DNA of 64,000 bases from an uncultured Ruminococcus sp. (lineage in GTDB: Bacteria > Bacillota > Clostridia > Oscillospirales > Ruminococcaceae): NCBI GenBank assembly GCA_947627275.1, contig CANQVK010000007.1:1-64000 (forward strand). Reading direction: 5' to 3'. Below the pieces are notes generated by a model. That model made no database searches. It had not been told where the DNA came from and saw nothing but the letters and a program-made list of their open reading frames with translations. Of this stretch, positions 39,438 to 54,463 are shown piece after piece. Within the stretch, counting starts at the first letter, position 1, and each line of letters begins with the position of its first letter. The position numbers and the translations under genes were made by a program.

Positions 39438-39597
39438 TATACTCGACGCTATTGCAAACCATCCAGTAATGCTGACATAAAATCCGTTTGTCTGCGTCAT
39501 CCTCCTCACCATACGCCAGTATGCTTTCGTCGTCTTCCTTGACATACGGATTTTCTGTTCAGCATCCTTTGGACGTTTTGCAATAGCGTCGAGTATA
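39438..39597 (+). repeat. Hairpin repeat, subfamily B, complete copy (160 bp)
   Basis: Inverted ends TATACTCGACGCTATTGCAA on both sides (39438 on, and the complement ending 39597), apex CATAC-GCCA-GTATG, again 160 bp. Its arms differ from subfamily A but share the CGTCATCCTCCTCACCATAC / GTCCTTGCCATAC region. It ends 58 bp before the gltB -35. Confidence 0.9.
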
Positions 39598-39655: not shown

Positions 39656-39684
39656 TTGACATTTCTTTAATTATATGATAAAAT
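39656..39684 (+). promoter_or_regulatory. Promoter of gltB
   Basis: TTGACA at 39656-39661 and TAAAAT at 39679-39684, 17-bp spacing. Transcription would start near 39691, about 150 nt before the gltB start. Confidence 0.85.
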
Positions 39685-39694
39685 AATACAGAAC

Positions 39695-39747
39695 AAGGAC
39701 GTTCCCGACAGACTAAGTGTCTGCTGAGGATGTCCTTTATTTTTTTA
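39695..39747 (+). terminator. Terminator in the gltB leader (candidate attenuator)
   Basis: AAGGAC (39695-39700) pairs with GTCCTT (39732-39737), enclosing an inner CAGAC/GTCTG hairpin (39709-39723), followed by TTTATTTTTTTAG. It lies between the gltB promoter and its start codon, so it must be read through for gltBD expression. No competing antiterminator pairing is obvious in the short upstream leader, so the mode of control is open. Confidence 0.75.
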
Positions 39748-39841
39748 GTCCGTATACGGTTCGGCAATGGGGCTGTATCCGATCATTCGGGGAGAATATT
39801 TATACGGAATAAAACAATAATAACGAAAGGTCGTGAACCTA

Positions 39842-42800
39842 ATGGACGATTTCAGAAACGAAGCTCCATTTCAGAGACAGGGACTTTACCGCCCACAGTT
39901 TGAACATGAAAACTGCGGAATAGGTGCGGTAGTCAATATCGGCGGAGAAAAGTCGCGCAGAGTAGTTGAAGACGCTCTTACGATCGTTGAAAAGCTTGAA
40001 CACCGTGCAGGCAAGGACGCTGAGGGTAAAACAGGCGACGGCGTAGGAATCCTTTCACAGATACCTTATGATTTCTTTAAAGCTCAGACCGAAAAACTCG
40101 GCTTTGACATAGGCGGCGCAGGGGACTTCGGCGTTGGCATGTTCTTCTTTCCTCAAAGCGAGCTGAAACGTAATCAGGCTAAGAAAATGTTCGAGATAAT
40201 CCTGAAAAAACAGGGTATGGAGTTCATCGGCTGGCGTAACGTTCCATCCGACCCGTCCGTACTCGGTCAAAAAGCGGTTGACAGTATGCCGTTCATTATG
40301 CAGGGATTTGTTAAGCGTCCGAACGGATGTCAAAAGGGAATTGATTTTGACCGTAAGCTTTATATTGCAAGGCGTGTTTTTGAGCAGGCAAATGAGAACA
40401 CCTATGTATGTTCTCTTTCAAGCCGCACCATAGTATATAAAGGAATGTTTTTGGTTGATGAGTTGAGAAAGTTCTACAGCGATTTGCAGGACGATAATTT
40501 CATATCTGCTATTGCAATGGTTCACAGCCGTTTTTCTACCAATACTCAGCCAAGCTGGCAGAAAGCGCACCCTAACAGACTGATAGTCCATAACGGAGAA
40601 ATAAATACTATCACAGGCAACGCCGATAAAATGCTTGCCCGTGAGGAAACTGTTCACTGTGAGGCTTTCGGTGATGATATGAGCAAGATACTGCCTGCAA
40701 TAAACGCAGACGGTTCTGATTCAGCAAGACTTGACAATGCCCTTGAATTTATGGTAATGTCGGGAATGCCTCTCCCTCTTGCAGTTATGATAACCATTCC
40801 CGAGCCATGGAAAAACAATCGAACGATTTCTCAGGAAAAATACGATTTTTACCAATATTACGCCACAATGATGGAGCCTTGGGACGGTCCCGCTTCTATC
40901 CTCTTTTCGGACGGAGACGTTATGGGCGCAGTTCTTGACAGAAACGGTCTGCGTCCTTCAAGATACTGCCTGACAGCCGATGGATTTCTTATTCTTTCTT
41001 CTGAAACGGGCTGCATAGACGTTCCGCCTGAAATGATAATCAAAAAGGACAGACTGCGTCCCGGAAAGATGCTGCTTGCGGACACAAAGCAAAAGCGTCT
41101 TATCGACGATGATGAGATAAAGTCTTTCTATGCTTCTCGCCGTCCTTATGGTGAATGGCTTGACAGTAACCTTGTCAAGCTCAATGAACTGCATATCCCC
41201 AACAAAGGCGTACAGAACTACACTCATGAGGAGCTTGAAAAGCTGCAAAAAGCGTTCGGCTACAGCTATGAGGATATACGCACAAGTATTCTTCCTATGG
41301 CAGAAAACGGAGCTGAGCCTATTGCATCAATGGGTTCGGATATACCGATACCGCCTCTTGACAGCGAAGATCCGCCGCTGTTCAATTACTTCCGTCAGCT
41401 TTTTGCGCAGGTTACGAATCCGCCTTTTGACGCTATCCGGGAGGAGATAGTTACCGATACAAGCACATATATAGGCGAGGACGGCAATATACTTGAGGAA
41501 AAGCCTGAGAACTGCCATGTTCTTAAGGTTGAAAATCCTATCCTGACCAGCACCGATATGCTTAAGATCAAGAGCATGAATGTGGACGGTCTGAAAACTG
41601 CGGTGATCCCGATAACCTATTATATAGGCACGTCCCTCGAACGCGCTATCGAGCGTCTTTTCATTGAAGCTGACAAGGCTTACCGCGAGGGTGCGAATAT
41701 ACTGATACTTTCAGACAGAGACGTTGACGAATATCGTGCGGCTATCCCGTCGCTGTTAGCAGTTGCAGCGCTCCAGCAGCACCTTGTTTCCACGAAAAAG
41801 CGTACAGCCGTGGCTATAATACTTGAAAGCGCAGAGCCGAGAGAGGTTCACCATTTTGCCGCGCTTCTCGGTTACGGCGCATGTGCGGTCAATCCCTATC
41901 TTGCACAGTCTACTATCCGCGACCTTATTGACACGGGTATGCTCGACAAGGATTTCTACGCAGCCGAAGCCGACTATAACAGCGCAGTCCTCCACGGTAT
42001 CGTAAAGATCGCTTCAAAAATGGGCATTTCCACGATACAGTCCTATCAGGGATCGAAGCTTTTTGAAGCCATAGGAATTTCAGAGGACGTAACGAATAAA
42101 TATTTCAGGGGAACGGTAAGCCGTATCGGAGGAATTACTCTTGACGATATAAGCAGACGTACCGAAAAGCTTCATAATGCGGCTTTTGATCCCCTCGGTC
42201 TGAATGTGAGCAGAGAGCTTGAAAGCTCCGGCAGTCATAAGCTACGTTCAGGCAAGTCCGATCATCTTTATACTCCCGAGACTATCCACCTTCTTCAGGA
42301 GGCTGCGCGTACCGGAAACTATGATACGTTCAAAGAGTATTCCGCTGCTGTAAACCGCGAAGACAACGAGCTTACTTTGAGAAGTCTCCTCGATTTTAAA
42401 TTTGACGAAAATGGCGGAATCCCCATAGATGAAGTCGAATCCGTTGAAAGCATCTGCCGCCGCTTCAAAACGGGCGCAATGAGCTACGGTTCGATCTCTC
42501 AGGAGGCTCACGAGTGCATGGCTGTGGCTATGAATAAACTCGGCGGAAAGTCCAACTCCGGCGAGGGAGGAGAGTCCCCCGAAAGATTGAAGTCCGACCG
42601 ATGCTCGGCTATCAAGCAGGTGGCTTCGGGCAGATTCGGAGTTACTTCGGAGTACCTTGTTTCCGCAAAGGAAATTCAGATAAAAATGGCGCAGGGAGCT
42701 AAACCCGGAGAGGGCGGTCATCTTCCCGGCGGCAAGGTCTATCCATGGATAGCAAAAACACGTCATTCTACGGCAGGCGTTGGACTAATTTCACCTCCTC

Positions 42801-44377
42801 CGCATCATGACATCTACTCTATCGAAGATCTGGCTCAGCTTATATACGACTTGAAAAATTCAAACAAGGACGCAAGAATTTCTGTAAAGCTTGTTTCGGA
42901 AGCAGGCGTCGGAACTGTTGCGGCAGGCGTTGCAAAGGCAGGCGCACAGGTAATACTTATATCGGGATATGACGGCGGTACGGGCGCAGCTCCGAGAAGC
43001 TCCATTTACAACGCCGGACTTCCTTGGGAAATAGGCCTTGCGGAAGCTCACCAGTCTTTAATGATGAACGGACTACGCACAAGAGTAATGATCGAGACGG
43101 ACGGAAAGCTCATGACAGGCAGAGACGTGCTTGTTGCAGCTCTTTTGGGTGCGGAGGAATACGGTTTTGCAACAGCTCCGCTTGTAACTATGGGCTGTGT
43201 AATGATGAGAGTGTGCAACCTTGATACTTGCCCCATGGGTATTGCAACACAGAATCCCGAGCTTAGAAAGCGTTTCAAGGGCAAGCCCGAGTATATCGTC
43301 AACTTCATGCACTTTATTGCACAGGAGCTTCGTGAATATATGGCTAAACTCGGTATACGAACGGTCAACGAGCTTATCGGACGCACTGATCTTCTTTATA
43401 AAAAGTCCGAGAAAGGCAATATTGATTTTTCCGAGATACTTTGCGGAGCTGTTGAGAACAACGGCAGCGGTCAGTACTTCAGGCAGGAGGATATTTACGA
43501 CTTTGAGCTTGAAAAGACAGTTGATGAGACTGTCATTATGAAGAAACTCGGATCTGCTCTCAAAAATAAAACCAAGAAAACAATCGAGATAAAGGTAAAA
43601 AACACTGACCGTGCGTTTGGAACGCTGTTCGGCTCTGAAATCACCAAAAAGTGGGGAGACAGCGCCCTTGATGATGATACCTTCACTGTAAAATGCCTCG
43701 GCAGCGGAGGACAGAGCTTCGGCGCATTCATACCGAAAGGTCTGACTCTGGAACTTATCGGAGACAGCAACGACTACTTTGGAAAGGGACTTTCGGGCGG
43801 AAAGCTGATACTTTATCCGCCGAAGGGTTCAGGATTCAAAGCGGAGGAAAATATTATTGCAGGAAACGTTGCTCTCTATGGTGCAACAAGCGGAAAGGCG
43901 TTTATCAACGGTATTGCCGGAGAACGGTTCTGCGTAAGGAACTCGGGAGCGTCTGCCGTATGCGAGGGCTGCGGTGATCACGGCTGCGAATATATGACCG
44001 GCGGACGCGCGGTTATTCTCGGCAGAACAGGCAAAAACTTTGCCGCAGGTATGTCGGGCGGCATCGCATATGTTCTCGACGAGGACAGAGATCTTTACAT
44101 GAAGATAAACAAGTCGCTTGTTTCCCTTGAATCGGTAACAAACAAGTACGACATCATGGAGCTTAAAAATATTATTCAGGAACATTTTGACGCAACAGGC
44201 TCCGAAAAAGCCAAAAGAATTCTTGACAACTTTGCAGGTTATATCGGAAACTTCAAGAAAATACTTCCTCATGACTATGCTAAGATACAGAGTACCGTTG
44301 TTGCCTTGGAGGAAAAGGGCATGAGCAGCGAGCAGGCTGAGATCGAAGCGTTCTACATTACGAAAAAGGAGGCGTGA
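39842..44377 (+). CDS. gltB: Glutamate synthase, large subunit
   Basis: A 1511-residue enzyme making two glutamates from glutamine and 2-oxoglutarate. The N-terminal class II glutamine amidotransferase begins at Cys22 (HENCGIGAVVNIGG) after a short propeptide. The FMN synthase domain shows GEGGESPERLKS, GAKPGEGGHLPGGKVYPWIA, and LISGYDGGTGAAPRSS; the 3Fe-4S Cys are in MGCVMMRVCNLDTCPMG. The C-terminal GXGXG helix domain has SGGKLILYPPKG and GNVALYGATSGKAF. ATG 39842 is preferred to a GTG at 39833 that lies too close to the AAGG site. It is followed by gltD after 3 bp. Confidence 0.96.
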   Translation: MDDFRNEAPFQRQGLYRPQFEHENCGIGAVVNIGGEKSRRVVEDALTIVEKLEHRAGKDAEGKTGDGVGILSQIPYDFFKAQTEKLGFDIGGAGDFGVGMFFFPQSELKRNQAKKMFEIILKKQGMEFIGWRNVPSDPSVLGQKAVDSMPFIMQGFVKRPNGCQKGIDFDRKLYIARRVFEQANENTYVCSLSSRTIVYKGMFLVDELRKFYSDLQDDNFISAIAMVHSRFSTNTQPSWQKAHPNRLIVHNGEINTITGNADKMLAREETVHCEAFGDDMSKILPAINADGSDSARLDNALEFMVMSGMPLPLAVMITIPEPWKNNRTISQEKYDFYQYYATMMEPWDGPASILFSDGDVMGAVLDRNGLRPSRYCLTADGFLILSSETGCIDVPPEMIIKKDRLRPGKMLLADTKQKRLIDDDEIKSFYASRRPYGEWLDSNLVKLNELHIPNKGVQNYTHEELEKLQKAFGYSYEDIRTSILPMAENGAEPIASMGSDIPIPPLDSEDPPLFNYFRQLFAQVTNPPFDAIREEIVTDTSTYIGEDGNILEEKPENCHVLKVENPILTSTDMLKIKSMNVDGLKTAVIPITYYIGTSLERAIERLFIEADKAYREGANILILSDRDVDEYRAAIPSLLAVAALQQHLVSTKKRTAVAIILESAEPREVHHFAALLGYGACAVNPYLAQSTIRDLIDTGMLDKDFYAAEADYNSAVLHGIVKIASKMGISTIQSYQGSKLFEAIGISEDVTNKYFRGTVSRIGGITLDDISRRTEKLHNAAFDPLGLNVSRELESSGSHKLRSGKSDHLYTPETIHLLQEAARTGNYDTFKEYSAAVNREDNELTLRSLLDFKFDENGGIPIDEVESVESICRRFKTGAMSYGSISQEAHECMAVAMNKLGGKSNSGEGGESPERLKSDRCSAIKQVASGRFGVTSEYLVSAKEIQIKMAQGAKPGEGGHLPGGKVYPWIAKTRHSTAGVGLISPPPHHDIYSIEDLAQLIYDLKNSNKDARISVKLVSEAGVGTVAAGVAKAGAQVILISGYDGGTGAAPRSSIYNAGLPWEIGLAEAHQSLMMNGLRTRVMIETDGKLMTGRDVLVAALLGAEEYGFATAPLVTMGCVMMRVCNLDTCPMGIATQNPELRKRFKGKPEYIVNFMHFIAQELREYMAKLGIRTVNELIGRTDLLYKKSEKGNIDFSEILCGAVENNGSGQYFRQEDIYDFELEKTVDETVIMKKLGSALKNKTKKTIEIKVKNTDRAFGTLFGSEITKKWGDSALDDDTFTVKCLGSGGQSFGAFIPKGLTLELIGDSNDYFGKGLSGGKLILYPPKGSGFKAEENIIAGNVALYGATSGKAFINGIAGERFCVRNSGASAVCEGCGDHGCEYMTGGRAVILGRTGKNFAAGMSGGIAYVLDEDRDLYMKINKSLVSLESVTNKYDIMELKNIIQEHFDATGSEKAKRILDNFAGYIGNFKKILPHDYAKIQSTVVALEEKGMSSEQAEIEAFYITKKEA

Positions 44378-44380
44378 GCT

Positions 44381-45865
44381 ATGGGAAAGCCTACAGGATT
44401 TATGAATTTTGAAAGATGCGGCAATGAGGCGGCTCAGCCTTTGGAGCGTATTAAGAATTACAATGAATTTCACCAGCCGCTGACTGATGAACAGCGTAAA
44501 TTGCAGGCGGCGCGTTGCATGGACTGCGGCGTACCGTTTTGTCAGAACGGCAAGATGATGCGTGGTATGATTTCGGGATGTCCCTTGAATAACCTTATTC
44601 CCGAATGGAACGATCTCCTTTACCGAGACCACAAGGAACAGGCGCTGCAAAGACTTCTTATGACAAATAACTTTCCGGAGTTCACATCAAGAGTTTGTCC
44701 TGCTCTCTGCGAAAAAGCGTGTACCTGCGGTCTCGGCGGCGACCCTGTTACAGTAAAGGAAAACGAGAACGCCATTATAGAATACGGTTTTGAAAGCGGA
44801 CTTATTAAGCCGGAGATCCCGAAAGTCCGCAGCGGTAAAAAAATTTCCGTTATAGGTTCAGGTCCTGCCGGTCTTGCGGCTGCCGATACGCTGAACAAGA
44901 GGGGACATTCGGTTACCGTTTATGAACGCGAGGACAGACCCGGCGGTCTGCTTATGTACGGGATACCCAATATGAAACTTGAAAAATCCGTTATCAATAG
45001 GCGTGTTGAAATAATGAAAGCTGAGGGCGTTAAATTTGTAACCAATGCGGACGTGGGGCATAACGTTTCGGCTAACGAGCTTCTCAGCAAATCGGATGCG
45101 GTGATTCTTGCCTGCGGTTCGTCGAATCCCCGTGACATCAAAGCGGAAGGACGAGACGCTGACGGTATTTACTTTGCGGTGGACTTTCTGAAATCAACTA
45201 CAAAGAGCCTTCTCAATTCTGCAATGGCAGACGATAATTATATTTCCGCAAAGGGTAAAAACGTAGTGATAATCGGAGGCGGAGATACAGGTAACGATTG
45301 TGTTGGGACGTCTGTCAGACACGGTTGTGCTTCCGTGGTTCAGCTTGAAATGATGCCGAAGCTGCCAGACGAGAGAGCAGAAAGCAATCCGTGGCTCGAA
45401 TATCCGAGGGTATGCAAGACAGATTACGGTCAGGAGGAAGCCGCGGCGTTATTCGGCAGCGATCCGAGAAGATACTGCACAACAGTCAAGGAATTCATAA
45501 AAGGTGAGGACAACAGGCTTGCCGCTGTGAAAACGGTTCGTCTTGATTTTGTAAAGGACGCTGAGAGCGGCAGAATGATACCGAAAGAAATAGAAGGCAG
45601 CGAAGAAATTCTCCCCTGCGAGCTTTGTCTTATTGCAGCAGGTTTTCTGGGAACTCAGGGATATATTGCAGAGGCTTTTGGCGTTGAGCTTAACGGTCGA
45701 AGCAATGTGAATACCGATACGGGAAGATTCCGTACAAACGTGGAAAAGGTTTTCACGGCAGGCGATATGCACATAGGTCAGTCTTTGGTTGTACGCGCGA
45801 TACGCGAGGGCAGGGACGCCGCTAAAGAAGCCGATGAATATCTTATGGGATATACAAATTTATAA
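44381..45865 (+). CDS. gltD: Glutamate synthase, small subunit
   Basis: A 494-residue NAD(P)H-oxidising subunit that feeds electrons to GltB. The N-terminal Fe-S region has CMDCGVPFC, SGCPLNNLIPEW and CPALCEKACTCG. The FAD-binding fingerprint is VIGSGPAGLAAADTL, the pyridine-nucleotide one VVIIGGGDTGNDCVGT, and the C-terminal FAD contact VFTAGDMHIGQSLVVRAIRE. It starts 3 bp after gltB with GGAGGCGTGAGCT upstream. Confidence 0.97.
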   Translation: MGKPTGFMNFERCGNEAAQPLERIKNYNEFHQPLTDEQRKLQAARCMDCGVPFCQNGKMMRGMISGCPLNNLIPEWNDLLYRDHKEQALQRLLMTNNFPEFTSRVCPALCEKACTCGLGGDPVTVKENENAIIEYGFESGLIKPEIPKVRSGKKISVIGSGPAGLAAADTLNKRGHSVTVYEREDRPGGLLMYGIPNMKLEKSVINRRVEIMKAEGVKFVTNADVGHNVSANELLSKSDAVILACGSSNPRDIKAEGRDADGIYFAVDFLKSTTKSLLNSAMADDNYISAKGKNVVIIGGGDTGNDCVGTSVRHGCASVVQLEMMPKLPDERAESNPWLEYPRVCKTDYGQEEAAALFGSDPRRYCTTVKEFIKGEDNRLAAVKTVRLDFVKDAESGRMIPKEIEGSEEILPCELCLIAAGFLGTQGYIAEAFGVELNGRSNVNTDTGRFRTNVEKVFTAGDMHIGQSLVVRAIREGRDAAKEADEYLMGYTNL

Positions 45866-45939: not shown

Positions 45940-47235
45940 ATGATTTATACAGAAAATGAGGTTTTATCATATATAGACGAAAACGATGTAAAATTTGTCA
46001 AGCTTACATTCTGCGACATTAAAGGAGCGCTTAAAAATATATCCGTGCTTTCTTCGGAAATGACGGCAGCTTTCGAGCGTGGAGTACGTATAACGGCAAA
46101 GAAGATCTGCGGATTTTCCATTGCAAAGGGACGTGATCTTTATATTTATCCCGACGCTCAGACTATGAAGGTACTCCCTTGGAGACCTCAGCACGGCAGA
46201 GTTATACGCATGTTTTGCTATATAAAATACGGCGATGGCGCTCCTTTTGAGGGTGACGGAAGATACTTTTTAAAGCAGGCTGCGAAAAAAGCTCTTAACA
46301 AGGGTTGGTGTTTCCGTTTCGGCACTTCAAGCGAATTTATGCTTTTCAGAAACGATGAAAGCGGAATGCCTACAAAGATACCTCACGATTATGCAGGGTA
46401 TTGTGATATTGCTCCTGACGACAAGGGGGAGAATTTTCGCCGTGACGTATGCTTTACTCTGGAGCAGATGGGAATACACCCTGTTTCCTCACGCCATGAG
46501 GCAGGTCACGGTCAGCATGAGATAGACTTCAACGCCTCGTCTGCACTTAAAGCGGCGGACACCTTTCTCAGCTTTAAATCGGCTGTAAAATCGGTTGCGG
46601 AGCAGCACGGCATCCATGCGAGCTTTATGCCGAAGCCTGTTAAAAACGACTGCGGAAACGGTATGCACATTGGCGTTAATGTATTCCGTGACAGCGATTT
46701 TTTCGACAACGATTCACCAGACGATAATTCGGCGGAGGTCAATATGGCGGCAGCAGGCATTATGAACTTTATCCGACAGTATACGGTATTTACCAATTCT
46801 ACGGTAAATTCCTACAGCCGCTTCGGAGAATTTTCTTTGCCGAGATATATTGCATGGTCTACAGAGGAGCAGGAACAGCTTGTAAAATTGAATATCGAAA
46901 CGGGCGGAGAAGCGCCTATTGTGCTGAGAGCGCCCGACTGCGTATGCAATCCGTATTTTGTGTTTGGTCTTATAATTTACGCAGCTGTAGAGGGAATCGA
47001 GGGAAAAATGGAAATGCCCGAAAAATTTGAGCCTTCCAGCGCAAGTTATGAAAAATTGCCTGTCAATCTTTTGGAAGCGGCGGAAATTGCAGATAATTCG
47101 GAATTTCTGAAAAGATATATTCCCGAAGAACTTTTGAAGCTTGTCGTAAGCAGCGCTAAGGATGAATGGAAAGAATATTCCGCCGAATACGATAAAGAAC
47201 TGTATGAAGAAAAAAAGTATTTCTACAGTTTATAA
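45940..47235 (+). CDS. Glutamine synthetase-like protein with a degraded active site
   Basis: A 431-residue homologue of GSI over its full length. In E. coli GS numbering, n1 metal ligands remain (E131 in SSEFMLF, E212 and E220 in RHEAGHGQHEIDF) and H269 remains (GNGMHIG), but n2 ligands E129 and E357 are Ser and Val (GTSSEF; IVLRAPD). The ammonium-site residues D50 and E327 are also gone: the DGSS segment reads ITAKKICGF (51-59) and the PGYEAP flap reads FGEFSLP (295-301). The ARNRS arginines that hold phosphate are STEEQEQ (307-313). Catalysis is therefore unlikely; a ligand-sensing role is inferred. It follows gltBD and precedes the ANTAR gene by 12 bp. Confidence 0.85.
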   Translation: MIYTENEVLSYIDENDVKFVKLTFCDIKGALKNISVLSSEMTAAFERGVRITAKKICGFSIAKGRDLYIYPDAQTMKVLPWRPQHGRVIRMFCYIKYGDGAPFEGDGRYFLKQAAKKALNKGWCFRFGTSSEFMLFRNDESGMPTKIPHDYAGYCDIAPDDKGENFRRDVCFTLEQMGIHPVSSRHEAGHGQHEIDFNASSALKAADTFLSFKSAVKSVAEQHGIHASFMPKPVKNDCGNGMHIGVNVFRDSDFFDNDSPDDNSAEVNMAAAGIMNFIRQYTVFTNSTVNSYSRFGEFSLPRYIAWSTEEQEQLVKLNIETGGEAPIVLRAPDCVCNPYFVFGLIIYAAVEGIEGKMEMPEKFEPSSASYEKLPVNLLEAAEIADNSEFLKRYIPEELLKLVVSSAKDEWKEYSAEYDKELYEEKKYFYSL

Positions 47236-47247
47236 CGGAGGATTAAT

Positions 47248-47829
47248 TTGGAAAATGTTATTGTAATTTCAAGCAGCAGCTCTGCGGCGGAATCCCTTTC
47301 GGCATTTATCAGAGAGTTCTTTCACTGTCAGGTTACAATAGCTGAGAACGGGCGTCAGGCAAGAGAGATACTGAGCAGCAGACGAACCTTTGAGCTTGTT
47401 CTGATCAACAGTCCGCTTGCTGACGAAGCAGGGATCGAGCTTGCCGAGTACGCTTCGGAGGCAACGGCAGCAAGCTGTCTTGTTCTTATAAAAAGCGAAA
47501 ATTACGAAAAGGTAAGTCCCAGAGCCGACCGCGGCGATATAATACTCGTTGTAAAGCCATTTTCAAGACAGGTTTTGCATCAGGTCATAAAGGCGGTAAA
47601 TATCGCTTTAAGACGTTCGTACGCCATGTATGAAGAAACAGTACGTCTTGAACGAAGAATCGAGGAGATAAAGCTTGTTGACAAGGCGAAATTCAGGCTC
47701 ATGCAGTACAGAAACATGACAGAGGAGGAAGCTCATTCCTACCTTGAGCAGTATGCTATGAAAAATCGAAAGAAAAAGACTATAGCTGCATCGGAGATAA
47801 TTGATAAAATATCCGAACAATATATGTAG
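47248..47829 (+). CDS. ANTAR-domain antiterminator with an aspartate-less receiver
   Basis: A 193-residue protein. The first 120 residues form a receiver fold, but the acidic pair is replaced by Ser (VIVISSSSSAAE) and the phospho-acceptor Asp by Asn (LVLINSPLADEAG); the Lys in VVKPF is kept. The C-terminal ANTAR RNA-binding domain (about 130-185) shows the pattern IKLVDKAKFRLMQYRNMTEE then EAHSYLEQYAMKNRKKKTIA. ANTAR proteins release transcription terminators by binding leader RNA. The start is TTG 47248, with GGAGG 6 bases upstream. Position after the GS-like gene suggests control by protein contact rather than phosphorylation. Confidence 0.88.
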   Translation: MENVIVISSSSSAAESLSAFIREFFHCQVTIAENGRQAREILSSRRTFELVLINSPLADEAGIELAEYASEATAASCLVLIKSENYEKVSPRADRGDIILVVKPFSRQVLHQVIKAVNIALRRSYAMYEETVRLERRIEEIKLVDKAKFRLMQYRNMTEEEAHSYLEQYAMKNRKKKTIAASEIIDKISEQYM

Positions 47830-47830
47830 T

Positions 47831-47981
47831 TATACTCGCCGCTATTCCAAAGAATGCTGAACAGAAAATTCGTATGTCAATGAAGACGACGAAGGCATAC
47901 TGACGTATGGCGAGGAGGATGACGCTGACATACGGATTTTATGTCTGCATTACTGGATATTTTGTAATAATGGCGAGTATA
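47831..47981 (-). repeat. Hairpin repeat, subfamily B variant (151 bp)
   Basis: Starts TATACTCGCCGCTATTCC one base after the ANTAR stop and ends ATGGCGAGTATA; apex CATAC-TGAC-GTATG. Ends and arms match subfamily B with several differences and a small deletion. Confidence 0.85.
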
Positions 47982-48026: not shown

Positions 48027-49445
48027 ATGTTTAATGAAATTCATGAGGAATGCGGAGTTTTCGGGATATATGAGAAAAACACAGCCGATGCGGCGTCCTC
48101 TGTATATTTCGGACTGTATTCCTTGCAGCACCGAGGACAGGAAAGCTGCGGTATAGCGGTCTGTGACGACGGCGTGTTCAGCCACAAAAAGGCAGACGGT
48201 CTTGTGTCCGATGTATTCAGCAAGGGCGAATTGGAACGTTTGGGCAAGGGAAATATCGCAGTCGGACACGTTCGCTATTCTACCTTTGGCGGAAAAAACC
48301 CAAATAATATCCAGCCCCTCGTTATCCGCCATATAAAAGGAAATCTTGCGCTCGTTCACAACGGCAACCTTATAAACGCCGATGAGCTTCGGCGTGAATT
48401 TGAGATGTCCGGAGCTATTTTTCATGGAACTTCCGATACCGAGGCGATCGCGTATGCAATTGTTCGTGAACGCCTTTCAAGTCATTCTACCGAAGCTGCG
48501 GTGGAACGTGCAATGCCCCGAATCAAGGGCGCATATTCCTGCATTATCATGACGGCTACAAAAATGATCGCCTTTCGTGATCCTGATGGATTCAGACCGC
48601 TGTGCATAGGCAAAACGTCAGACGGAGCTTTTGTTGCCGCATCGGAGTCATGCGCTCTTGAAACCGTGGGAGCAGAATTTCTTCGGGATGTAGAGCCGGG
48701 AGAGATCGTAGTATTCAGTGAAGGAAAAATGAAGTCGATACGCACTCATGTGCGTGAAAAAGGCAGTATTTGCATTTTTGAATATATCTACTTTGCCCGT
48801 CCCGATTCCGTAATAGAAGGAAAATCGGTTCATCGAGCAAGAGTACGGGCAGGGGAGATACTTGCAGAATGCAGTCCCGCCGATGCGGATATTGTTATAG
48901 GGGTTCCCGATTCGGGTCTTGATGCGGCTCTCGGTTATGCAAACAAAAGCGGTATTCCATACGGGATAGGATTTATAAAAAACAAATATATTGGCAGAAG
49001 TTTTATTCAGCCTCAGCAGAACCAGCGTGAAAATGCGGTCAAAATAAAACTCAATGCTGTTCGTGAAAGTGTTGAGGGCAAGCGTGTTGTAATGATAGAT
49101 GATTCGATCGTCAGGGGAACTACAAGCGCAAGGATAATCCGTTTGCTCAGAGATGCAGGAGCTAAGGAGGTTCATGTGAGAATATCTTCTCCGCCTTTTC
49201 TGCATTCCTGCTATTTCGGTACTGATATTGACAGCGAAGAAAATCTTATAGCAAGTCATTGCGGTTCATTGGAAGAAATTACAAAGATGATCGGTGCAGA
49301 TACTCTTGCTTATCTGCCTGTTGAAAAGCTTTGCGAACTCGCCGACAGAGACAATTTCTGCAAGGGCTGCTTTACGGGAACATACCCGATTGACGTGTCG
49401 GGTGCAAGTCAAAAAAATAAATTTGACGAAAAGATCCATAAATAA
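48027..49445 (+). CDS. purF: Amidophosphoribosyltransferase
   Basis: A 472-residue first enzyme of purine synthesis, making phosphoribosylamine from PRPP and glutamine. After a short propeptide (MFNEIHEE) the nucleophile Cys9 begins CGVFGIYEKN. The PRTase domain has the PRPP loop VVMIDDSIVRGTTSARI. Four Cys matching the [4Fe-4S] ligands of the Bacillus-type enzyme are seen (SICIFEYIYFARPDS, HSCYFGTDID, FCKGCF), so it is the oxygen-sensitive Fe-S form. It stands apart from other purine genes and within a glutamine-using cluster. Confidence 0.95.
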   Translation: MFNEIHEECGVFGIYEKNTADAASSVYFGLYSLQHRGQESCGIAVCDDGVFSHKKADGLVSDVFSKGELERLGKGNIAVGHVRYSTFGGKNPNNIQPLVIRHIKGNLALVHNGNLINADELRREFEMSGAIFHGTSDTEAIAYAIVRERLSSHSTEAAVERAMPRIKGAYSCIIMTATKMIAFRDPDGFRPLCIGKTSDGAFVAASESCALETVGAEFLRDVEPGEIVVFSEGKMKSIRTHVREKGSICIFEYIYFARPDSVIEGKSVHRARVRAGEILAECSPADADIVIGVPDSGLDAALGYANKSGIPYGIGFIKNKYIGRSFIQPQQNQRENAVKIKLNAVRESVEGKRVVMIDDSIVRGTTSARIIRLLRDAGAKEVHVRISSPPFLHSCYFGTDIDSEENLIASHCGSLEEITKMIGADTLAYLPVEKLCELADRDNFCKGCFTGTYPIDVSGASQKNKFDEKIHK

Positions 49446-49513
49446 ATTTTACGGCAAATTATTAATATTCAGGAACATACGACGATTTGTTGCTGAACGG
49501 GGAGGAAATTCAG

Positions 49514-51094
49514 ATGTGTACAATTATGGGCTATTGCGGCGTAAGCGGCGGTAGGAAATATGTTGCGGAGGGACTTGAAGCTACTGTTTCAAGAGGTCCA
49601 GACGACTGTAGAATTATAGAGCTTGAGGACGGCGTGCTTGGTTTTCAAAGACTGTCTATCATGGGTCTGACACCCGAGGGAATGCAGCCCTTCGAGCTTA
49701 ACGGAAATTACGCAGTCTGCAACGGCGAGATATATGGCTTTCTGAAACAGCGTGAGGAGCTTAAGAAAAAGGGATATACCTTTAAAAGCGACAGCGATTG
49801 TGAGATTCTTTTGCCTATGTATAAGGAATTTGGCGTTGATATGTTTGATAAGCTGGACGCTGAATTTGCCTGCATTATTTATGATTCGGAAACGCATGAG
49901 TTTATTGCCGCAAGAGACCCAATCGGCATACGTCCGCTGTATTATGGAAAGTCCGCTGACGGAACGATGGTTTTTGCAAGCGAAGCGAAGAATCTTGTAA
50001 AGATCTGCGATAAGATCGCTCCGTTCCCACCCGGATATTATTACAAGGACGGAAAGTTCGTCTGTTATCGTGATATTACAGCCGTTGACAATATAATATA
50101 TGATGATATTGAAACAGTCTGCAAGAATATTCATGATAAGCTTGTTGCAGGCATTGAAAAACGTCTTGCGGCAGACGCTAAGATCGGCTTTTTGCTTTCA
50201 GGCGGACTTGATTCCTCGCTTGTCTGTGCCGTAGCTCAGCAGAAAAGCGATAAGCCTATAAGAACCTTTGCAATTGGTATGAATACCGACGCCATAGACC
50301 TTAAATATGCTAAACAGGTCGCTGACTACATAGGCAGCGAACATACGGAAGTCATTATAACTAAGGACGATGTGCTTGAATCTCTCGAAACGGTTATTCG
50401 TCTGCTGGGAACATATGATATAACGACTATTCGTGCCAGTATGGGAATGTATCTGCTGTGTAAGGCTATCCACGAGCAGACAGACATACGTGTCCTCATG
50501 ACAGGTGAAATTTCAGACGAGCTGTTCGGATATAAATATACTGATTTTGCACCGAATGCGGAGGAATTTCAGAAGGAATCGGTCAAGCGTGTTCATGAGC
50601 TTCATATGTACGACGTTCTACGTGCAGACCGTTGTATTTCCGTAAATTCCCTTGAAGCGAGAGTACCTTTCGGCGATCTTGATTTTGTCAGGTATGTTAT
50701 GGCAGTTGATCCGGAAATAAAACTTAATAAATATAACAAGGGCAAGTATCTTCTCCGTCACGCTTTTGAGGGCGATTACCTTCCTCACGATATACTTTAC
50801 CGTGAAAAAGCGGCGTTTTCAGATGCAGTCGGACACTCTATGGTAGACTATCTGAAAATGTATGCGGAGGAACAGTATACACAGGCTGAATTTGAAGAAA
50901 AGTCGGCGAAATACAGCCATGCAAGACCATTTACCAAGGAGTCGCTCCTGTATCGTGAGATATTCGAGAAATATTACTCGGGCAATTCCGAAATGATTGC
51001 GGATTTCTGGATGCCGAATAAGGAGTGGGAGGGCTGCAATGTAAACGACCCGTCAGCCCGTGTGCTTTCAAACTACGGTGAAAGCGGAAAATAA
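49514..51094 (+). CDS. asnB: Asparagine synthase (glutamine-hydrolysing)
   Basis: A 526-residue enzyme converting aspartate to asparagine with glutamine and ATP. The mature N-terminus Cys2 (MCTIMGYCGVSGG) is the glutaminase nucleophile; the synthetase half has the pyrophosphate loop IGFLLSGGLDSSLVCAVAQQ, and GEISDELFGYKYTDFAPNAE further on. ATG 49514 follows CGGGGAGGAAATTCAG; this start is required to expose Cys2. Length and motifs fit the AsnB rather than the AsnA type. Confidence 0.95.
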   Translation: MCTIMGYCGVSGGRKYVAEGLEATVSRGPDDCRIIELEDGVLGFQRLSIMGLTPEGMQPFELNGNYAVCNGEIYGFLKQREELKKKGYTFKSDSDCEILLPMYKEFGVDMFDKLDAEFACIIYDSETHEFIAARDPIGIRPLYYGKSADGTMVFASEAKNLVKICDKIAPFPPGYYYKDGKFVCYRDITAVDNIIYDDIETVCKNIHDKLVAGIEKRLAADAKIGFLLSGGLDSSLVCAVAQQKSDKPIRTFAIGMNTDAIDLKYAKQVADYIGSEHTEVIITKDDVLESLETVIRLLGTYDITTIRASMGMYLLCKAIHEQTDIRVLMTGEISDELFGYKYTDFAPNAEEFQKESVKRVHELHMYDVLRADRCISVNSLEARVPFGDLDFVRYVMAVDPEIKLNKYNKGKYLLRHAFEGDYLPHDILYREKAAFSDAVGHSMVDYLKMYAEEQYTQAEFEEKSAKYSHARPFTKESLLYREIFEKYYSGNSEMIADFWMPNKEWEGCNVNDPSARVLSNYGESGK

Positions 51095-52016: not shown

Positions 52017-52045
52017 TTGACAAATATAGATAAAATATGTACAAT
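52017..52045 (+). promoter_or_regulatory. Promoter of the GH43 gene
   Basis: TTGACA at 52017-52022 and TACAAT at 52040-52045, 17-bp spacing, with transcription starting near 52052. Confidence 0.85.
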
Positions 52046-52078
52046 ATTAATAGAAATAATATTTGTAGGAGTGATTTT

Positions 52079-54463
52079 ATGCACAGGTCTTTTCTTAAAA
52101 AGGCAGCAGCCTGTTTTTTGGCATTGGCTGTGACTGCCGCTGTCATGCCAATTGCAGATAATATAAGTAAGGAAACAGGGATTATGGCGTCTGCTGTTTC
52201 ATCGGCTGCAAACCCTGTTATATGGTCGGACGTTCCTGACTGCGATGTTATCCGTGTCGGCGACACGTATTATATGGTAAGCACGACTATGTTTTTCAGT
52301 CCCGGCGCTCCGATCATGAAATCCAAGGATCTGGTCAGCTGGGAAATATGTTCCTATGTATATGATACTCTTGCTGACGGAGACGTTCAGAATCTTACCA
52401 ACGGAAAGCACGATTACGCTCACGGACAATGGGCTGCCAGCCTTCGATACCATGACGGAATGTTTTATGTCTTTTTCGGCAGCTATGGTACTGGAAAATC
52501 CTATATTTATAAAACCAACGATATTGAAAACGGTGAATGGACACGTTCCGAGCTTAACGGCATGTATCACGACGCTTCAATGCTTTTTGACGATGACGGC
52601 AGAAACTATCTTGTTTACGGAGGCGGCGGAGAAATAAAGATAAAAGAACTCAACTCCGAAATGACTGATTTCAAATGGGGCGGACTTGAAAAAACTCTTT
52701 TTAAAACAGGTCTTGACAATTTGGCGGGTGAGGGTTCTCATATTCAGAAAATCGGCGATTACTACTACGTTTTTATCATCGCATGGCCAAGCACAAGCGG
52801 ACGTATTGAGCTTTGTTACCGAAGCAAAGACCTCAACGGAGCTTTTGAGGGGAAAACTGTGCTTAATTCAGGTCTGGGAACATACGGTTCAGGGGTTGCT
52901 CAGGGCGGAATCGTTGATACGCCCGACGGTAAATGGTACGGTATGCTCTTTCAGGATCATGGTTCGGTTGGACGTATTCCGGTACTCGTCCCTGTAACAT
53001 GGGTCGATGGCTTTCCAATGATGGGTGTAAACGGAAAAGCGCCTGTTGCTCTTGAAGTTGACGGAGACTTTAAAGGTACGCATCTTGCCAAAGACGACGG
53101 CTTCAGCTACAGCTCAAATGACCTTGCCCTTGAATGGCAATGGAATCATAACCCCGATAATACCGCATGGTCGGTCACAGAACGCGACGGGTGGCTTAGA
53201 CTTAAAAACAAGACTGTTGCAAAAAGCATAATAAATGCCAGAAATACACTTACTCAGCGAACCGAAGGTCCGTCCTGTTCGAGCGTTATAAAGCTTGATT
53301 CAAGCGGAATGAAAGCAGGTGACTACGCAGGATTTTCAGCCTTTCAGTTCAAATACGGAAATGTCGGTGTACGTGTTGCAGACGACGGTTCAAAGAAAGT
53401 GTACATGGCTGAAAACGGCGGATACTCATCAAATGCGAATATAATGGACAGCTATGACAAGATTATTGAAGAGGCGCCGCTTAACGGCAATGAAGTTTAC
53501 CTAAAAGTGGATTTTCATTTCAATAATGTTGACGAAAATCTTAACTCCTCGTACAATATTGACAAAGCCAACTTCTTCTATTCATATGACGGAAGCAACT
53601 GGACGAAAATCGGCAGCGAGCTGAGCATGTCTTATGATTTAAAAATGTTTACGGGCTACAGAAGCGGTATTTACAGCTATGCAACCAAGAATACAGGCGG
53701 CTATGCAGACATTGATTTCTTTGATTATGAAAATTACGGCTGGAATTCTCCGACAGTTATTGAACCGAATTCATTTGGCTGGTACTTCTGCAACGGCTTT
53801 GAATCCTCAAAAGAAGAATGGTCTCCAAGAGGCGGCGTGACCGTTGAAGTAAGCGGCGATAATTCGTTTGTCGGTGAAAAGTCTCTGTATGTTGACGGTC
53901 GCACAAGCGCATGGAACGGTGCATTTCGTCCCTTGAATCCAAATGCCTTTGCGCCGGGAAACGAATACAGCTTCAGTGCAAACGTTATGTTCACCGACGG
54001 CGGCGCAAGCGATAAGTTTCTTATGAAGCTTCAATATACTGATGAAAACGGTGATGTTAATTATTCAACGATTGCGGAAGGACGAGCAAAAAAAGGCGAA
54101 TGGGTGCAGCTTGCAAACATGAATTACAAGATACCGGATGACGCGTCAGATATGCAGCTTTATATCGAAACGGCTGATTCCGTCAATTCCTTCTATATAG
54201 ACGAAGTTATCGGAGCTGTCGGCGGAACCGGCATTCTCGGAGCAGGCGTACCGAAGAATGTCATTTTAGGCGACCTGAATGATGATGAAGTCGTTGATGT
54301 ATACGATCTAGTTTTGGCAAGAAAAGTATATTTTATCCAGAACTCCGACAGCTTTCCTGAAGCTGCTGACGTTGACTGTGACGGCGTTTTCGGCATAAAC
54401 GATATTTTGCTTTTGTCGGAATTTGTATTGGGCACAATACAGGAGTTTCCAAATAACGGATAA
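52079..54463 (+). CDS. GH43 glycosidase with CBM22-like module and dockerin
   Basis: A 794-residue secreted hemicellulase: signal peptide about 1-25, GH43 five-bladed propeller from about 44, a beta-sandwich of the GH43 C-terminal type near 350-565, a CBM22/CBM4_9-like module about 570-715 (NGFESSKEEWSPRGGVTVEV onward), and a dockerin 728-794 (GDLNDDEVVDVYDLVLARK and ADVDCDGVFGINDILLLSE). Probable catalytic base is Asp54 (DVPDCDVIRVGDTYYMV) and acid the Glu in AGEGSHIQKIGDYYYVF. Likely acts on xylan or arabinoxylan side chains; exact specificity cannot be read. ATG 52079 follows TAGGAG; a Met at 52037 precedes the transcript start. Confidence 0.92.
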   Translation: MHRSFLKKAAACFLALAVTAAVMPIADNISKETGIMASAVSSAANPVIWSDVPDCDVIRVGDTYYMVSTTMFFSPGAPIMKSKDLVSWEICSYVYDTLADGDVQNLTNGKHDYAHGQWAASLRYHDGMFYVFFGSYGTGKSYIYKTNDIENGEWTRSELNGMYHDASMLFDDDGRNYLVYGGGGEIKIKELNSEMTDFKWGGLEKTLFKTGLDNLAGEGSHIQKIGDYYYVFIIAWPSTSGRIELCYRSKDLNGAFEGKTVLNSGLGTYGSGVAQGGIVDTPDGKWYGMLFQDHGSVGRIPVLVPVTWVDGFPMMGVNGKAPVALEVDGDFKGTHLAKDDGFSYSSNDLALEWQWNHNPDNTAWSVTERDGWLRLKNKTVAKSIINARNTLTQRTEGPSCSSVIKLDSSGMKAGDYAGFSAFQFKYGNVGVRVADDGSKKVYMAENGGYSSNANIMDSYDKIIEEAPLNGNEVYLKVDFHFNNVDENLNSSYNIDKANFFYSYDGSNWTKIGSELSMSYDLKMFTGYRSGIYSYATKNTGGYADIDFFDYENYGWNSPTVIEPNSFGWYFCNGFESSKEEWSPRGGVTVEVSGDNSFVGEKSLYVDGRTSAWNGAFRPLNPNAFAPGNEYSFSANVMFTDGGASDKFLMKLQYTDENGDVNYSTIAEGRAKKGEWVQLANMNYKIPDDASDMQLYIETADSVNSFYIDEVIGAVGGTGILGAGVPKNVILGDLNDDEVVDVYDLVLARKVYFIQNSDSFPEAADVDCDGVFGINDILLLSEFVLGTIQEFPNNG

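Follow-up and report, generated by a model that had tools for sequence, protein, structure and literature searches.

The question raised by this locus is what a glutamine synthetase (GS) homologue does when it stands beside the glutamate synthase (GOGAT) genes of a Ruminococcus and lacks much of the machinery with which such enzymes make glutamine. The window, by which we mean the whole analysed stretch of 64,000 nucleotides, belongs to a genome of 2.44 Mb in 49 contigs that is 96% complete; an initial annotation had read the gene as a GSI pseudoenzyme, not simply decaying, that may still bind glutamine or glutamate and act as a nitrogen sensor.

The open reading frame is intact from an ATG start to a TAA stop and encodes 431 residues (Table 1). 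Both the GS beta-grasp domain (Gln-synt_N, PF03951, 53.9 bits) and the catalytic domain (Gln-synt_C, PF00120, 234.2 bits) score above their Pfam cut-offs, and the closest solved structures are GSI enzymes (best E 3.6e-85); the GlnA equivalog TIGR00653, with its cut-off of 429.15, is not reached (265.1 bits). When aligned to E. coli GlnA (from NC_000913), whose numbering is used for GS residues throughout, the protein retains E131, E212, E220, G265, H269, R321 and R359, with the n1 metal ligands (E131, E212 and E220) and the glutamate-site arginines present, and carries the replacements D50T, S53K, E129S, E327S, R339Q, R344K, R355P and E357V. In GSI enzymes, E129, H269 and E357 bind the n2 metal, which positions ATP, D50 and E327 bind and deprotonate ammonium, and R339, R344 and R355 are the ATP-placing arginines. 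Two of the three n2 ligands are therefore gone, H269 staying in place; the ammonium site is gone; and the three arginines have become Gln, Lys and Pro. At the column of the adenylylation Tyr of GSI-beta enzymes (397) the protein has a gap. The GSI landmarks and n1 ligands described in the initial annotation are thus present, and the five replacements it had named (D50, E129, E327, R339 and E357), together with the losses of the n2 and ammonium sites, are all borne out by the alignment, which adds S53, R344 and R355. Since residues for the n2 metal, for placing ATP and for ammonium are lost, the protein, hereafter pseudo-GS, should make no glutamine; since E131, G265, H269, R321, R359 and the n1 ligands are kept, it probably binds glutamine or glutamate.

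Table 1. Features of the operon and its leader in the window
Feature	Coordinates	Strand	Basis
Promoter-like site TTGACA-17-TAAAAT with TG ahead of its second hexamer, immediately preceding the leader	39656..39684	+	Site scan
Leader attenuator of the gltBD-pseudoGS-ANTAR operon	39691..39744	+	Model R1, covariation, terminator fold
gltB, glutamate synthase large subunit, first gene behind the leader	39833..44377	+	NF008730, 1657.9 bits
gltD, glutamate synthase small subunit	44381..45865	+	TIGR01317, 671.5 bits
Pseudo-glutamine synthetase, GSI fold, 431 aa, group A	45940..47235	+	ORF, Pfam, GSI structures, alignment to E. coli GlnA
AmiR-like antiterminator, receiver-like domain and C-terminal ANTAR domain	47248..47829	+	Pfam, Rv1626 alignment
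purF, amidophosphoribosyltransferase, next gene 3' of the ANTAR gene	48027..49445	+	TIGR01134, 512.8 bits
asnB, glutamine-hydrolysing asparagine synthase	49487..51094	+	NF006949, 620.4 bits

The gene order is gltB, gltD, pseudo-GS, ANTAR gene, purF and asnB, with gltB and gltD directly upstream of pseudo-GS, as the annotated proximity to GOGAT had implied; seven further loci (L083, L085-L090) have open reading frames that match this operon in size and order, the comparison being by size only. Two other features of the region were noted in passing. A dispersed repeat of about 120 bp lies both in the gap between the ANTAR gene and purF (47840-47965) and 5' of the gltB promoter (39455-39573); it has 46 matches in its own genome including itself, many of them partial, and near-full-length copies are 87-93% identical. 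Further downstream (52037-54463), Pfam identifies a glycosyl hydrolase family 43 protein with a GH43_C2 domain, a carbohydrate-binding domain and a C-terminal dockerin, which fits a cellulosome-bearing Ruminococcus.

Working glutamine synthesis in this organism likely comes from GSIII (GlnN). The initial annotation had proposed looking for a canonical glnA or glnN elsewhere in the genome, and a Pfam search of the genome finds no canonical GSI and four GS genes: the window gene, a GSI-like gene on contig C16, and two genes of GSIII size (on C21 and C25) that both carry the GSIII N-terminal domain. GSIII is a separate, longer family (696 aa); the C25 protein can be aligned over its whole length with the GSIII structure 3o6x, its active-site motifs, read by eye, looking intact. 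Among genomes of the genus that carry a pseudo-GS, 30 of 33 have GSIII. The C16 gene belongs to a second pseudo-GS/ANTAR pair (L072:5591-7588), in which Arg and Lys replace the metal ligands E129 and E212.

How general the losses are was assessed in 60 genomes, the window genome and 59 relatives, where a search at a threshold of E 1e-30 gives 71 GSI-like matches in 48 genomes. Within the genus these fall into group A, to which the window gene belongs (26 genomes), and group B (30 genomes), both being found in 23; most Ruminococcus genomes sampled hold two pseudo-GS/ANTAR modules. None of the 55 genus sequences examined is a canonical GSI; those of group B number 29, from all 30 genomes except G027. 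In the group A alignment of 38 sequences (26 loci and 12 named records, some partial and with at least one genome in both sets), D50 (one gap), E129, E327 and R355 (two gaps) are kept in none, R339 in 3, E357 in 16 and R344 in 25, while E220, G265, R321 and R359 are kept in all 38, E131 and H269 in 37, and E212 in 35. New near-invariant charges appear in or near the pocket: K52 (34/38), K53 (37/38) and R210 (37/38). Group B lacks E129, E212, H269 and E327 in 29/29 and keeps E131, E220, R321, R344, E357 and R359 in 29/29; Lys or Arg at 129, Lys or Arg at 207, and K212 are each found in all 29. Judged from these alignments, the catalytic residues were lost by different routes in the two groups, and the losses of the window protein are neither chance nor a private accident; a single joint clade of A and B, as expected of one duplication, is not rejected (p-AU 0.295). 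The nearest named records of the window protein are Ruminococcus metagenome-assembled genomes (MAGs), one called R. flavefaciens, and one close record is labelled Alistipes, probably by mistake.

Selection on pseudo-GS is purifying, and not that of a decaying gene, because dN/dS is low in the pairs with usable dS: 0.05-0.09 in group A (7 of 153 pairs) and 0.015-0.073 in group B (11 of 55 pairs). With core losses common to the orthologues examined, dN/dS in this range and a likely working enzyme in GSIII, the pseudoenzyme reading is well supported at the sequence level.

The gene that follows pseudo-GS encodes a protein with a Pfam ANTAR domain (PF03861, 51.7 bits against a cut-off of 27.3), preceded by a receiver-like domain that scores 25.7 bits as Response_reg, under the cut-off of 30.2; alignment to Rv1626 (1s8n) places Asn at the position of the phospho-acceptor Asp. 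The association of the two genes is nearly exclusive. Of the 71 ANTAR domains in the 60 genomes, 70 are encoded by the gene that immediately follows a GSI-like gene in the same orientation, and an ANTAR gene in turn comes next after 70 of the 71 GSI-like genes; the sole exception (G037) keeps its catalytic residues, and its genome gave neither an ANTAR nor a GSIII match. The phospho-acceptor Asp is kept in 7 of 78 GS-linked ANTARs versus 11 of 11 unlinked ones (Fisher 9e-10, with related rows that overstate independence), the 7 being divided among group A (0/26), group B (3/29), others in the order (2/14) and sequences from outside it (2/9). The last of these sets alone differs from the unlinked ANTARs with a Fisher value of 5e-4 (rows related), both the 9 linked and the 11 unlinked sequences having been hand-picked from the 75 linked and 28 unlinked ANTARs of a class-wide sample. 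In the ANTAR part, A147, K148, H163 and M171 (window numbering) are invariant in all 69 aligned GS-linked proteins; M171 is, in our reading, EutV Met172. As the usual phosphorelay input is mostly absent, another input is needed, and the simplest source is the neighbouring GS-like protein; by analogy with AmiC-AmiR and NasS-NasT, the absence of the Asp suggests that the signal probably passes by contact with pseudo-GS.

A candidate target for the antiterminator lies before gltB, where a leader motif was found by reading conserved upstream DNA. Its hairpin, GAAC-AAGGAC-GTTC, presents a hexaloop with A1 and G4, and its loop together with its 3' arm doubles as the 5' arm of a terminator (-21.7 kcal/mol, z -3.87); the leader matches model R1 with E 8.3e-8 and is itself among the R1 seeds. 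The preceding promoter-like site is the best-scoring of 12 in the region, weak on its own since shuffles average 11.9 sites, and is placed alike in relatives. No known RNA family could be assigned, since nothing in the window or in five loci attained an Rfam gathering score, and the classical dual hexaloop was likewise rejected (3 sites in the window against 0-4 in eight shuffles, none at gltB). Among 24 aligned leaders, by eye, only the first hairpin has a common A1/G4 hexaloop. The minimal ANTAR motif has been redefined as one hexaloop in work on EutV (available part of PMC8934654), and the single A1/G4 hexaloop of this leader therefore fits an ANTAR target as far as that published single-hexaloop binding goes.

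Covariation supports both the hexaloop and the competing terminator. Most of the 24 leaders were collected by a scan demanding a promoter-like site, an AARG loop, a stem of at least three pairs and a T-run, so that loop conservation and hexaloop stem pairing are partly products of selection (97.9% of cells paired, 20 double-change cells); the terminator stem, which was outside the scan criteria, is paired in 95.8% of cells with 31 double-change cells. For both stems the pairing percentage, the double-change cells and the covariation score lay above every shuffle; on the two measures counting pairs or pair types, 45 and 14 of 500 shuffles did at least as well as the hexaloop, and 2 and 2 of 500 as well as the terminator. 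A model built on terminator pairs only, its letters still taken from the seeds, gives 108 matches in 83 loci; in these, the hexaloop stem is paired in 91.0% of cells with 86 double-change cells, and none of 500 shuffles is as high or attains the covariation score, while pairs with double changes (129/500 shuffles) and further pair types (470/500) did not exceed shuffles.

The genes behind the leaders are mostly nitrogen genes. In the window genome, model R1 has only two strong matches, both seeds: that before gltB (E 8e-8) and one before an operon on C25 (E 8e-6) that comprises a fused amtB-glnK, the CTP synthase gene pyrG and glnN. In the wider set, 44 of 60 genomes have a leader match (E <=0.05, with stricter filters applied), namely 41 of 47 that bear an ANTAR gene versus 3 of 13 that do not (Fisher 2e-5, the related rows again overstating independence). 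We surveyed the genes behind 100 matches (97 of the 108 matches of the 60-genome search, the other 11 having short or unretrieved flanks, plus 3 weaker ones of the terminator-only model), 95 of which are followed by an open reading frame within 450 bases. In 74 this is gltB (25), amtB-glnK (24), a more distant amtB (2), glnN (8), a gene resembling the glutaminase domain of GOGAT (6), asnB or another amidotransferase (4), pyrG or a pyrG-like amidotransferase (3), or a GS-like gene before an ANTAR gene (2). NAD synthase accounts for five of the other 21 and asnA for three, identified either through their family or through 85-91% identity to a confirmed member; a dihydropyrimidinase, a C26 peptidase and a protein of the ornithine-cyclodeaminase family occur once each. 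Running against the nitrogen pattern are two genes without family, a glycosyl hydrolase, an ABC transporter and an ATP-grasp protein, and five lay outside the family scan. In G028, which has no gltBD before pseudo-GS, the leader is directly upstream of the pseudo-GS gene itself. The C16 pair has no strong R1 match of its own in the window genome, and no convincing leader directly precedes group B genes in the loci scanned, two of which (L046 and L075) have long hairpins without the promoter/AARG arrangement.

Beyond the genus, the pairing is older in appearance than the loss of catalysis. A class sample of 196 genomes, counted without the window genome's two pairs and two ANTAR matches below cut-off, contains 112 GSI-like and 103 ANTAR genes, and 75 of the former are placed no more than 1200 bases ahead of one of the latter. 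Residues were scored in 43 of these 75 (at most two per family, three further genes and four same-order genomes being left out) and, with one gene per family, in 17 of the remaining 37. Among the ANTAR neighbours, 17 of 43 are changed at one or more of 14 catalytic positions and in distinct ways, the changes including E327K, E131K/E327K, E327R, E327C, E131N/E212A/E220Q, D50N or D50H with E327, R339 and R344 changes, E129R/E220Q/E327K/R355I/E357S, and E129G/R339Q/R344K; most E327K sequences keep the other 13 positions. The remaining 26 of these 43 sequences from outside the genus keep all 14 residues, so that pairing with ANTAR does not require a dead enzyme, and the dead forms look like later steps than the pairing. 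None of 16 clear non-neighbours is changed (Fisher 0.0026 against 17/43, with independence overstated by related rows). The only one of the 17 non-neighbours to differ is L314 (E327K), which is probably a broken GSI-ANTAR pair, lying near a contig end in a genome whose ANTAR gene is near the start of another contig; counting it as a non-neighbour gives a Fisher value of 0.012. In 33 named records (L103-L135), four of seven ANTAR neighbours differ, one only by E327D, and the 26 non-neighbours are unchanged apart from L134, where R321 and E327 fall in gaps. At least eight switches between intact and changed are needed on a tree of 113 rows with 13 catalytic columns removed, a count that includes mild cases (E327D, a lone R359L) on a tree with 39 of 110 inner branches weak. 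It is a tentative proposition, somewhat short of an even chance in our estimate, that GS was turned several times independently within Clostridia into a dedicated nitrogen sensor in which a dead GS is joined to a dead receiver and the small-molecule state of the former active site replaces phosphorylation as what drives an RNA-binding antiterminator.

Several individual cases deserve record. One GS beside an ANTAR gene (L279, genome G073) has lost the n1 ligands (E131N, E212A, E220Q) and keeps E129, E327 and the arginines, a route opposite to that of group A, and in two ANTAR-adjacent proteins, from a Vallitaleaceae MAG (L113) and a Firmicutes MAG (L114), R339 and R355 are the sole changes among the 14. 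The E327K proteins of six loci (L032, L033, L039, L040, L043 and L053) measure 399-410 aa, some 30-40 residues less than intact members of the set, and two (L033) or none retain a residue at the 397 column; this C-terminal shortening could change the oligomer. In G095 (C1:2277610-2280980; L321, L276) two intact GS genes stand in tandem, one GSI directly before a GSI-ANTAR pair, which is a possible early step in a division of labour.

We consider it probable that the catalytically dead GSI is a glutamine- or glutamate-binding sensory partner that gates an AmiR-like antiterminator of nitrogen assimilation. With glutamine plentiful, liganded pseudo-GS would hold the ANTAR protein inactive and the leaders would terminate; as glutamine falls, the ANTAR protein would be freed, dimerise and bind the hexaloop at the leader start, and this binding would block the terminator and let transcription proceed through gltBD-pseudoGS-ANTAR-purF-asnB and amtB-glnK/pyrG/glnN. 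The ligand, the protein contact, the binding of ANTAR to the leader and the sign of control are the parts of this scheme that we infer. Both modules possibly serve one nitrogen regulon, and in group B a side chain, rather than a metal ion, may hold the pocket, given the Lys or Arg at former metal ligands. The nitrogen-sensor role suggested in the initial annotation is supported by context only, through ANTAR coupling, loss of the phospho-acceptor, a nitrogen regulon under the leader and a kept amino-acid site. Against the scheme stand a leader with one A1/G4 hexaloop and not the usual two, 6 of 47 ANTAR-bearing genomes without a leader match and the 3 of 13 ANTAR-less genomes with one, the C16 pair with no strong leader of its own, and the 7 GS-linked ANTARs that retain Asp.

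E327 corresponds, as we take it, to Glu304 of the feedback-inhibited GS (FBI-GS) of B. subtilis. This flap Glu contacts glutamine in that enzyme (available part of PMC9249791), and because it is lost in both groups, affinity for glutamine may be weak, which is the main point against a tight glutamine ligand. The same loss, the new near-invariant charges in or near the pocket of both groups, and the presence of glnK, fused to amtB, within the same regulon would all suit a dead GSI that partners ANTAR but responds to another signal, such as ammonium, 2-oxoglutarate or a nucleotide, or acts by way of GSIII or GlnK. We regard this as unlikely, though the most serious of the alternatives, in view of E131, R321 and R359, which are kept in 37, 38 and 38 of 38 group A and in all 29 group B sequences.

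Considerably less probable is that pseudo-GS is a non-catalytic subunit that assembles with and regulates another GS, for example GSIII, the ANTAR gene being merely co-regulated. GSI chains form large oligomers (compare the available part of PMC9249791), and GSIII accompanies pseudo-GS in nearly all of the genus genomes that bear it; but GSIII is a different and longer family, the gene behind the GSI-like gene is an ANTAR gene in 70 of 71 cases, and two genomes (G013 and G034) have GSIII with no match for the GSI-like gene, ANTAR or leader. An active ligase with altered specificity, like the gamma-glutamylpolyamine or methylamide synthetases, is more improbable still: a new amine substrate would be compatible with a protein that had lost just its ammonium site, and with the E327K sequences otherwise intact, but group A has also lost E129, R355 and mostly R339, with E357 lost in 22 of 38, and group B has lost E129, E212 and H269 throughout. 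The metal and ATP residues (E129, R339, R355, E357, E212 and H269) are needed by other GS-fold ligases. That pseudo-GS is a decaying glnA left after GSIII took over, as the lost catalytic residues could suggest, is rejected as the initial annotation had foreseen, since the window frame is intact and frames are open in the loci examined where frameshifted orthologues would be expected, dN/dS is low in usable pairs, near-invariant residues are new, and gene order is kept.

If the sensory reading is true, a central enzyme has become a pure sensor with living intermediates, from intact pairs through E327-only changes to full pseudoenzymes, and the way in which many gut and rumen Clostridia may sense nitrogen has a concrete explanation open to test. 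The results also suggest that some glnA annotations in gut genomes do not denote glutamine synthetases, which matters for metabolic models. No report of a GS pseudoenzyme paired with ANTAR was found in the literature searched, weak evidence of absence as most subscription papers lie outside it. Although each part of the system is of a known kind, that literature has no dead GSI as a likely ANTAR partner, a pairing present twice per genome in most members of the genus sampled and recurring across Clostridia.

In solvent-producing Clostridium, an ANTAR antiterminator is reportedly linked to glnA (glnA-nitR). In C. thermocellum, the ANTAR gene Clo1313_2030 is numbered next to Clo1313_2031, annotated as glutamine synthetase (available part of PMC4676874). 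The present locus resembles both glnA-nitR and the C. thermocellum GS/GOGAT-ANTAR cluster in linking an ANTAR gene to glnA or GOGAT with proposed control of ammonia assimilation (for the latter, the same part of PMC4676874, which makes no claim of an inactive GS). It differs from them in that the window GS-like protein lacks catalytic residues, occurs in two pairs and is accompanied by GSIII, which would carry out the chemistry.

AmiC and NasS are periplasmic-binding-protein-like sensors and differ in this from the GS fold of the sensor proposed here. In AmiC-AmiR a ligand-binding protein controls an ANTAR antiterminator, AmiR having a non-phosphorylated pseudo-receiver (PMC3369936), and in NasS-NasT an ANTAR antiterminator is likewise under a ligand-binding protein (available part of PMC3795266); like AmiR, the window ANTAR protein has a receiver without the phospho-acceptor Asp. 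EutV-type leaders also set an A1/G4 hexaloop in competition with an intrinsic terminator (available part of PMC3369931), but they have two hexaloops and EutV is activated by phosphorylation, whereas the window leader has one and the receivers mostly lack the Asp.

The closest parallel in GS itself is the FBI-GS of Bacillus, Staphylococcus, Listeria and Paenibacillus, a GSI that reports glutamine to the co-encoded GlnR by direct contact (available part of PMC9249791). There an active enzyme meets a MerR-like DNA binder, whereas in the window a GS without catalytic residues neighbours an RNA-binding antiterminator, the gene adjoining pseudo-GS encoding an ANTAR protein and not a MerR-type GlnR. 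If the proposed partnership is true, it would give a second example in which GSI communicates with a gene regulator, along a path distinct from that of GlnR.
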